Shown here piece by piece: positions 20,837 through 25,040 of a DNA stretch of 64,000 bases. The position numbers and the translations under genes are program-made. The stretch covers positions 2,074,770 through 2,138,769 of the forward strand of contig NZ_CP063767.1 of the NCBI RefSeq assembly GCF_015277515.1, given 5' to 3'. Under the pieces are notes generated by a model. That model did not search any database and was not told the origin of the DNA. It worked only from the letters and a program-made list of their open reading frames with translations. Source of the DNA: Thermophilibacter immobilis. GTDB taxonomy: Bacteria > Actinomycetota > Coriobacteriia > Coriobacteriales > Atopobiaceae. How positions within the stretch are numbered: the stretch's first letter is position 1; each line of letters begins with the position of its first letter.

Positions 20837-20906
20837 CATCATCACATTCAACCTAACCGCACGGCGCACGGATACGATCTGCTCCATCTCGTCACGCGCA
20901 TATTTC
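20832..20906 (-). pseudogene. deoC: deoC remnant, distal fragment beyond the IS
   Basis: Reading leftward from the 8-bp duplication at 20899-20906, the frame continues the interrupted deoC as WKYARDEMEQIVSVRRA and soon stops at TAA. Precise removal of the insertion sequence joins the two fragments in frame. Even then the product would be only about 130 residues, against about 220 for deoxyribose-phosphate aldolase. The catalytic C-terminal half was therefore lost separately, ending next to the tRNA-Arg terminator. Confidence 0.7.
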
Positions 20907-22255
20907 GGGTTAAAGGACAAAACGTGTTGCTGATCTGTCACGTTCTTGCAGGTAACACCCCAATAAGGTGGGTCTATAGTTGGTCCCTCCCAACTACGAG
21001 GATGGACAGAACGTGTTGCTGATCCCGCCTATCGTCCCAGCTAAATGCCCATAAGCATGCCATGTTAGTTGCCTGTGTCGACGTCGACGGAGGCAGGCGG
21101 TCCGATGGGCAAGGTGAGGTGCCCCTACTGCGGGGGCAAGACCAAGAGGAGTGGCAGGACGACCGCAGGGAGGCAGCGCTGGAGATGCCTCACCTGCGGG
21201 GCAACGTTCGTCCATGGGATAGATGCTTCCGCGAAGACGTTGGACGGGTTCCTGACATGGCTGCTCTCCGGTGAGAGACAGTCCGACCTGCCGGGTGGCG
21301 GGAGGACCTTCAGGAGGAGGACCTCCAGGTTCTGGGACATATGGCCCCTGCCTCCCCTCGTGGACGAGGTCTTCGATGTCGTCTACGTCGACGGGATATG
21401 GGTCGCTCGCGACGTCGTCGTGCTCATAGCCTGCACGGACGAGCATGTCCTCGGGTGGTACGTGGCAAGAAGCGAGAACTCGCGTGCCTGGTCGGCCCTG
21501 CTGGCCCGCATCGCCCCTCCCGGCGTGGTGGTGGGTGACGGCGGCTCGGGGTTCGCCAAGGCCGCCAGGCGCATGTGGCCCACCACGAGGGTCCAGCGTT
21601 GCACCTTCCATGCCTTCTGCCAGGTCAGAAGGTACACCACCTCACGTCCCAAGCTTAGGGCGGGCGTCGAGCCCTATGACCTCGCGTGCCGGCTGCCGCA
21701 TGTTGCCAGCTCCGAGCAGGCGGCCGCCTGGATGGTCTCCTACGCGTCATGGTGCTCGCGCTGGGGTGCGTTCCTGGCCGAGCGCACCCGTGACGAGCGC
21801 GGACACCTGGCCTACACCCACGAGAGGCTCGTCAGGGCGAGAGGCTCGCTTACGACCCTCGTCAGGCAGGGGACGCTCTTCACCTACGTCGACCCTGGCC
21901 TCACGGGCGTGCTCGGGCCTCTGCCGGCAACGAACAACAGGATAGAGGGCGGCGTGAACGCCCAGCTGAGACGCATGCTGAGGGATCACAGGGGCCTCAG
22001 CACGACCAGAGGGATCAAGGCCGTCTACTGGTGGTGCTATCTGCACACGGAGTGCCCCCTGCCCGCTGCGCAGATCCTGAAGGTGATGCCCACGGATGAC
22101 CAGATCGCCCGGGCATATCGCAACATCACCTACGGGCAGAGAAGCGAAGAACCGATGGAGTGGGGTGATGGCCTGGTCTGGCAGGATCTGCACCAGTCGG
22201 TCCCCTGGCGTTCGGACTGGGACTAGTCATAGCAACACGTTTTGTCCTATAACCC
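20907..22255 (+). mobile_element. IS256-family (IS1249-like) insertion sequence with 8-bp target duplication
   Basis: A 1349-bp element. The ends GGGTTAAAGGACAAAACG... and ...CGTTTTGTCCTATAACCC form inverted repeats of about 25 bp with one mismatch in the first 20. The target duplication CATATTTC occurs at 20899-20906 and again at 22256-22263. One transposase gene fills the interior. The left end holds a second inner copy of the subterminal sequence (21004-21024). The target is a deoC gene. Confidence 0.9.
21105..22226 (+). CDS. IS1249-like transposase with N-terminal zinc ribbon
   Basis: A 373-residue transposase. Residues 6-31 form a CxxC...CxxC zinc ribbon (CPYC, CLTC). The mutator-type DDE core follows: YVDGIWVARD, VVVGDGGSG, the family signature QRCTFHAF, and NNRIEGGVN with the catalytic Glu. 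These place it in IS256/IS1249. ATG 21105 is preceded by GGAGGCAGGCGG; a TTG 36 bp earlier is possible. The frame is intact and the flanking duplication exact, so the insertion may be recent. Confidence 0.88.
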   Translation: MGKVRCPYCGGKTKRSGRTTAGRQRWRCLTCGATFVHGIDASAKTLDGFLTWLLSGERQSDLPGGGRTFRRRTSRFWDIWPLPPLVDEVFDVVYVDGIWVARDVVVLIACTDEHVLGWYVARSENSRAWSALLARIAPPGVVVGDGGSGFAKAARRMWPTTRVQRCTFHAFCQVRRYTTSRPKLRAGVEPYDLACRLPHVASSEQAAAWMVSYASWCSRWGAFLAERTRDERGHLAYTHERLVRARGSLTTLVRQGTLFTYVDPGLTGVLGPLPATNNRIEGGVNAQLRRMLRDHRGLSTTRGIKAVYWWCYLHTECPLPAAQILKVMPTDDQIARAYRNITYGQRSEEPMEWGDGLVWQDLHQSVPWRSDWD

Positions 22256-22586
22256 CATATTTCCAGTTTCCTGCCTTGACCTCAGTAAGATCGACCACGC
22301 AGTCAATCTCGTTCGCGCCGCTGGCAAGGGCGTCTTTGATCTCGAAGACCTTGGCAGCAACCGAGCTCTGACCAAGGGAAAACCCGATGGACGCACCCGT
22401 ATGGACATCCGTCCCCGCCAGGAGCTCCGAGCAGAGCCGTGACTGGACGGAGTTCACCGCAACCATCCTAAAGTGATAGCGCTTTGCCTGGTCGCAGAGC
22501 ACCCGCATGTCCTCGTGCGTGGCATCGGGATGAAGGTTGGTGTGACCGACGAGGCGGGCAAGACCATCGATGGTGTAGCGCCTCAT
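22256..22586 (-). pseudogene. deoC: deoxyribose-phosphate aldolase, N-terminal half, cut by IS
   Basis: The 110 residues before the insertion are clearly DeoC: MRRYTIDGLARLVGHTNLHP, VNSVQSRLCSELLAGT, VHTGASIGFSLGQSS and SGANEIDCVVDL. The active-site lysine region lies in the missing half. DeoC splits deoxyribose-5-phosphate into glyceraldehyde-3-phosphate and acetaldehyde. The start 22586 has GGGGAG upstream. It lies 29 bp behind the LexA-controlled small gene on the same strand and may be co-transcribed with it. Confidence 0.85.
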
Positions 22587-22615: not shown

Positions 22616-22999
22616 TCAATGGTACGCGATGCGCCGGCAGTCGGCGCGCGCGGGCCTGAACTGCAGGCCGCTCCGGTCTCCCATCCCCGTGAAGACGTAG
22701 GGGATGCCCGTGCGATCGCAGAGGTCCATCAGATCTGCAAGGTCATAACGCTCCCGAGTGAGAAAGTCCCAGAGGGAGCCCTCCCCACCAGAAAATCCGA
22801 TTCGCTCGATTAGGGCGTCAAGTGCGGCAGGCTTCAGAAAGATTCGCAGACTGCGCTCCTTGTCCCCATAGGCGATGAGCGTGGAGGGACCCGAGAGGTC
22901 CTCTCGCAGCACGATGCCGCCCCCCTCGCGCGCCACCGACATTCTGCGCACGTCGCCGGCCCGCTCGAAACGCGCGACCTCAAACTCCCCCATGAGAAT
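22616..22999 (-). CDS. Small protein of unknown function under apparent SOS control
   Basis: About 127 residues if read from GTG 22999 (AAAGG five bases upstream); ATG 22993 is an alternative. I recognise no family. Visible features are an N-terminal basic strand region (FEVARFERAGDVRRMSV), a central LSGPSTLIAYGDKERSLRIFL and a helical SLWDFLTRERYDLADLMDLCDR. There is no signal peptide or membrane segment. Two LexA-type boxes overlap its promoter, so it should be induced by DNA damage. The decayed deoC follows in the same direction. Confidence 0.6.
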   Translation of the reverse strand: MLMGEFEVARFERAGDVRRMSVAREGGGIVLREDLSGPSTLIAYGDKERSLRIFLKPAALDALIERIGFSGGEGSLWDFLTRERYDLADLMDLCDRTGIPYVFTGMGDRSGLQFRPARADCRRIAYH

Positions 23000-23033
23000 C
23001 ACCCAGACCTTTCTTGTCACCTTCCCTTGTTCC

Positions 23034-23069
23034 AGTATACCCAAACATATGTTCTAGGAACACATGTTC
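23034..23069 (-). promoter_or_regulatory. Promoter with two LexA (SOS) boxes
   Basis: GAACACATGTTC (23058-23069) matches the Gram-positive LexA core GAAC-N4-GTTC exactly. AAACATATGTTC (23043-23054) matches with one difference. On the minus strand a -10 element TATACT lies at 23039-23034, so the boxes occupy the spacer and -35 region, where repressor binding would block transcription. Confidence 0.8.
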
Positions 23070-24973: not shown

Positions 24974-25040
24974 CCGACCATACCCGAACGCGTGTTTAAG
25001 GTCCAAAATCGCCCCAAACGAGGCGTTCGGGCATGGTCGG
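24974..25040. repeat. 18-bp inverted repeat between divergent genes
   Basis: CCGACCATACCCGAACGC (24974-24991) and GCGTTCGGGCATGGTCGG (25023-25040) pair at 17 of 18 positions around a 31-base loop. It sits upstream of both tRNA-Leu and the kinase gene, so it cannot be the usual 3' terminator of either. Confidence 0.75.

Follow-up and report, generated by a model that had tools for sequence, protein, structure and literature searches.

A conserved small gene behind LexA boxes probably belongs to the SOS regulon of Atopobiaceae and of a sister family within Coriobacteriales

In the SOS response, the repressor LexA holds its target genes silent until RecA brings about LexA self-cleavage and the genes are derepressed. 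The closest described systems to the locus reported here are YneA, DivS and SosA, SOS-induced division inhibitors that are membrane proteins encoded beside lexA (PMC6851548, PMC13396833). We analysed a 64,000-nucleotide stretch of the Thermophilibacter immobilis genome (hereafter the window), which carries on its minus strand, at 22616..22993, a small gene that resembles these systems in being an apparently LexA-controlled small gene of a Gram-positive relative. The position next to lexA is taken in this genome by another gene (L009:1893-2333 on G000:C1), Pfam-confirmed as encoding a transmembrane and LysM protein, which diverges from lexA and precedes nrdR; LexA-type boxes lie in the promoter common to the two. 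A LysM/membrane protein diverging from lexA was found in 17/17 of the checked genomes that carry the small gene (by Pfam here, by eye elsewhere); it was not seen in the sampled genomes of the sister family described below, most of which hold a different small membrane-type open reading frame there. Judged by this lexA-inhibitor-nrdR arrangement, the LysM gene appears to fill the YneA/DivS division-inhibitor slot. We rejected an assignment of the small protein itself to the YneA/DivS/SosA type: unlike those inhibitors, it has no hydrophobic (transmembrane) segment or LysM domain, its gene lies beside serS rather than lexA, and the separate LysM gene stands at lexA.

The LysM gene also bears on a related reading, in which the small protein is a second SOS checkpoint factor that arrests cell division or the initiation of replication from the cytoplasm, like SulA, and not from the membrane, like YneA. 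Strong control by doubled boxes is generally known to be typical of checkpoint genes, and the product is a small, soluble protein that evolves fast; against this, the lexA-nrdR interval already holds a fitting YneA/DivS candidate in all 17 of the gene-carrying genomes examined, and no known inhibitor family was matched in Pfam or NCBIfam. Because of the LysM gene by lexA, we marked division inhibition down; a second inhibitor is conceivable but is not our first guess, and we regard this reading as rather unlikely.

The small gene would encode 125 amino acids from the ATG at 22993, or possibly 128 from the GTG at 23002. The longest open reading frame uses a TTG start and spans 142 amino acids, but since its first codon would precede the point where transcription is expected to begin, one of the other two starts should be the real one. 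The ATG coincides with the start position in relatives, and the GTG has an AAAGG 5 bases upstream and the better Shine-Dalgarno spacing. The neighbouring gene is deoC, of which the first 110 of 236 residues are left. The preliminary description had called this downstream gene decayed; it is indeed broken, though not simply decayed, since an IS1249-family insertion sequence at 20902-22260 (transposase at 21069-22226; 30-nt imperfect inverted repeats at 20902-20931 and 22231-22260) interrupts it behind residue 110, and its distal half was not found in the window. No constant operon partner accompanies the small gene, the next gene differing between relatives and being in this genome the insertion-broken deoC.

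Read along the minus strand, the promoter consists of a perfect distal LexA (SOS) box GAACATGTGTTC (23069-23058), 3 bases, a proximal box GAACATATGTTT with one mismatch (23054-23043), GGG, and the -10 element TATACT (23039-23034), with the box centres 15 bp apart. With an assumed 17-bp spacer, the -35 hexamer falls inside the distal box and the spacer is occupied by the proximal one, and LexA bound at either site should therefore block RNA polymerase. Both boxes, and the way they cover the -35 region and the spacer before TATACT, had been described beforehand, and our reading of the sequence agrees with that description. Most close relatives likewise have a TATA-type -10 element behind the proximal box.

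A LexA protein of matching specificity is encoded in the genome, with the LexA DNA-binding domain (PF01726, LexA_DNA_bind) and the Peptidase_S24 domain (PF00717) in L009:1051-1755. The lexA promoter of this genome carries GAACAAATGTTT and a weaker second box, and GAACN4GTTY-type boxes are present in the lexA promoter of 30/30 genomes of the order that were examined. Boxes also precede recA (L047), ruvCAB (L048), uvrB (L061), a Y-family polymerase gene (L054) and a gene for a BrxC/D-family ATPase (L094); the boxes of the small gene, which overlap its promoter, have the same specificity as the lexA, recA and ruvCAB sites of this genome. We considered whether the boxes could serve another repressor with the same half-site, given that S24-type phage repressors are generally known to be able to bind similar palindromes; this is highly improbable in view of the same motif before lexA, recA, ruvC, uvrB and the Y-family polymerase gene, and in the lexA promoters of all 30 genomes.

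The motif is sparse in this genome of 2.16 Mb, where the perfect GAACN4GTTC occurs at 12 sites (55 for the reversed control pattern) and RAACN4GTTY at 38 sites (146 for the reversed control), and the boxes of the small gene are the only pair of consensus sites closer than 100 bp. Boxes with one mismatch are not over-represented within the window (15 observed against 25 expected), so their count alone is uninformative. To rank the 38 RAACN4GTTY sites, we scored them with a matrix whose weights were trained on lexA promoters from other genomes of the order. The proximal and distal boxes of the small gene came 3rd and 6th of 38, respectively, and the lexA, recA, ruvCAB, uvrB and Y-family polymerase sites were all within the top 11.

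Several other sites emerged from this survey. The 4th-ranked of the 38, a strong LexA-type box GAACATATGTTT at L094:1490-1501 (G000:C1:1766889), lies ~55 bp upstream of the BrxC/BrxD-family ATPase gene (PF10923, E 1.8e-169), and a BREX-like or related system under SOS control is possible on this arrangement. Of all LexA-type palindromes in the genome, the two with the highest scores are found in the gap between rlmN and parB (L051/L096, G000:C1:2157338), where no obvious gene stands behind the site, and within the coding sequence of a Jag-like protein close to the contig end (L052, G000:C1:2160672). A CGCGTGTTT-type palindrome beside GGTCCAAAATCG recurs in similar copies at 24986-25014 of the window and at ~1460-1520 of L055; these sequences may represent an intergenic element that is dispersed in the genome and imitates a LexA box. 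The LexA DNA-binding model had a second match in the genome (L010:1498-2604), which is not LexA; from its sequence it resembles a sugar kinase of the PfkB type that carries a winged helix at its N terminus.

To examine conservation, homologues were collected by protein searches only, in which the boxes played no part. A single-sequence search found the protein encoded in 93/140 Atopobiaceae genomes, including 30/31 of the same genus, and a profile (A2) built on diverse members reached 155/398 genomes of the class and brought in a sister family from the same order, probably Coriobacteriaceae/Collinsella. At the reach of these searches, the family was found only in Atopobiaceae and this sister family of Coriobacteriales. 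All 8 relatives from the genome_contigs set, which bear the names Olsenella or Atopobiaceae, carry a box, doubled in 7 of them. Among 110 upstream regions, which come from related genomes and are hence not independent, though with diverged flanking promoter sequence, RAACN4GTTY was present in 101, the perfect palindrome in 91 and two sites in 36, as against 7 and 0 for the consensus and the perfect palindrome, respectively, in 1657 control flank windows of the same length. Of the 9 regions without a consensus box, most have near-boxes with one base changed, such as GAACATATGTAC and TACATTTGTTC in L179. In the sister family, a perfect box stands at 19/19 loci, all of them located by the protein profile alone. 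The distance and placement of the sites relative to the -10 element differ between genera, indicating that the site itself is kept and not merely the surrounding sequence.

The boxes persist down to ~20% protein identity, and serS lies upstream in 71/92 loci, drawn from both families, which shows the loci to be orthologous even at this level of divergence. For the converse test, we inspected ~540 bp behind serS in each of 22 genomes that the earlier searches had left unmatched, and neither a box nor such a gene was found there; in one of these genomes (G161) a later profile located the gene ~1 kb further on, leaving 21 negatives over the ~540 bp. Taken with the encoded LexA and the ranked boxes, this conservation makes it almost certain, as far as sequence can tell, that the small gene belongs to the LexA/SOS regulon. 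The idea that the boxes arose by chance before a decaying reading frame could appeal to the broken deoC next door, but it is already refuted by the conservation of the boxes (101/110 upstream regions against 7/1657 control windows) and by an excess of third-position changes in the codons.

Under a further reading, the gene belongs to a mobile element or a toxin-antitoxin system that has come under SOS control. Such an origin would suit the insertion sequence that adjoins the gene in this genome, the mobile-element-like setting of one box-less relative (below) and the selfish nature of many SOS genes. It fits poorly with a gene that keeps its place near serS in two families and has no partner gene; in addition, phage and plasmid records and PADLOC gave no match, and the sole match on a viral contig was a gene beside tRNA-Arg whose sequence matched a chromosomal copy, that is, host DNA. 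Linkage to mobile elements is weak, and we consider this reading improbable.

Two other genomes carry box-less relatives that are paralogues (L199:3089-3358 and L200:3993-4376), one of them in DNA that looks mobile-element-like; going by these sequences, the domain of the small protein also exists outside SOS control. A phylum-wide search returned a single distant protein from a different family (G657, E 5.5e-5), which has no LexA box and whose own relatives are too weak for judging kinship.

Between relatives, changes at third codon positions are roughly twice as frequent as those at second positions, indicating purifying selection on the small protein. Searches of Pfam, NCBIfam, PHROG and PADLOC with the protein and its diverse relatives (14-19 members in the case of Pfam and NCBIfam) gave no match, and a PDB sequence search yielded only hits with an E of 0.03 or more, in keeping with the initial view that the gene belongs to no recognised family. 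The same Pfam/NCBIfam searches, with the protein and 14-19 diverse members, found no match to DinI, UmuD, YolD or any further curated family of SOS accessory proteins. Two AlphaFold runs agreed on a compact alpha/beta fold (pLDDT 78, pTM 0.70), in the order strand-strand-strand-helix-strand-three helices-strand, followed by a floppy C-terminal tail. Fold searches of PDB and viral models yielded nothing at an E of 0.001 or better, and all Z scores from VIA-align were 6.0 or less. The recurring weak neighbours of the model were the XRCC4/SAS-6/CCDC61 head domains (Z 3.6-5.1; for SAS-6 up to 5.1 over 85 residues) and the PC4/Whirly/PUR folds (Z up to ~4.8, for Whirly), both groups tied with unrelated chains and with Foldseek E above 0.05 (0.1 or more for the XRCC4/SAS-6 superfamily); we take this resemblance of a predicted model as no evidence of kinship. 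Neither by sequence nor by fold was a clear match obtained.

Across 14 diverse Atopobiaceae members, five residues (E31, G35, D87, D90 and D93) do not vary. The three aspartates are spaced i, i+3 and i+6 on a predicted helix (85-95) and by this spacing should line one of its faces. The sister family retains the glycine, and also the tyrosine that follows the helix, but has lost the aspartates, so the acidic face cannot be a family-wide mechanism. No catalytic motif was recognisable in the protein.

The aspartate face raises the possibility that the protein modulates the RecA filament or a translesion polymerase in the manner of DinI or of UmuD/YolD, docking through an acidic helix. Consistent with this, the acidic positions are invariant in the 14 Atopobiaceae members, and the Y-family polymerase gene of this genome also has a LexA box; the sister family, however, does not retain these positions, no sequence match to the DinI, UmuD or YolD families was found, and Y-family polymerases are as common in genomes without the gene. 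We hold this specific role to be doubtful, and we rank it about equal with the second checkpoint factor discussed above.

Overall, the small gene is probably best explained as a LexA-repressed SOS gene whose product is a lineage-specific soluble accessory protein that binds a component of the damage response. LexA dimers would sit side by side on the two boxes, over the -35 region and spacer, and exclude RNA polymerase; when LexA cleaves itself under the action of RecA bound to single-stranded DNA, the two boxes would be vacated and the gene switched on, an induction that we infer from the promoter. The product would be a small, soluble, compact alpha/beta protein, inherited vertically near serS, that binds or modulates a component such as the RecA filament, the Y-family polymerase or the replication or checkpoint machinery, and in Atopobiaceae the likeliest contact face would be the three invariant aspartates on one helix. 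An accessory binding protein is the most likely product in view of the missing catalytic motif and operon partner and the presence of a YneA-like inhibitor elsewhere in the genome. Genomes that have the small gene and genomes that lack it alike encode LexA and Y-family polymerases, the polymerases being equally common without it, so the protein is not an obligate partner of either and is accessory; as both are universal, their co-occurrence with the gene is itself uninformative. That the protein is a binding-type modulator rather than an enzyme or a toxin we consider evenly balanced, and the molecular role as proposed is put forward tentatively. The preliminary description had named the gene a candidate new SOS effector: its standing as an SOS gene is borne out by the encoded LexA, the ranked boxes and their conservation, and that it is an effector is what we infer.

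The preservation of a LexA site over two families, while the protein diverges to ~20% identity, makes it likely that the gene matters for surviving DNA damage. The Coriobacteriales (Olsenella, Atopobium and probably Collinsella) are abundant bacteria of the human gut and mouth, and their SOS response appears to be so far undescribed: a search of the open literature, outside which most subscription journals lie, found no relevant paper on LexA or SOS in Coriobacteria, Olsenella or Collinsella. The evidence raises what began as a single promoter to a conserved SOS-regulon gene shared by two families, and this gene offers a ready target for study, comprising one small soluble protein, one promoter and many relatives.

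Compared with known SOS proteins, the product is like SulA, the enterobacterial FtsZ inhibitor, in being a cytosolic small protein that is apparently LexA-controlled, but it has no sequence match to SulA, and the division-inhibitor slot here appears to be taken by the LysM protein. With DinI, the E. coli modulator of the RecA filament, it shares small size, solubility, apparent LexA control and, in its Atopobiaceae members, an acidic face on one helix; it differs in giving no sequence match and in that its acidic face is not family-wide, and the length and the order of secondary-structure elements differ as well. It is possible, though we lean against it, that the protein is the first representative of a separate class of SOS effectors restricted to two families of Coriobacteriales, novel in fold and action and distinct from repair enzymes, YneA/SulA-type inhibitors and DinI/UmuD homologues. 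The protein family appears new, and the kind of system to which it belongs, a LexA-regulated gene, is a known one.
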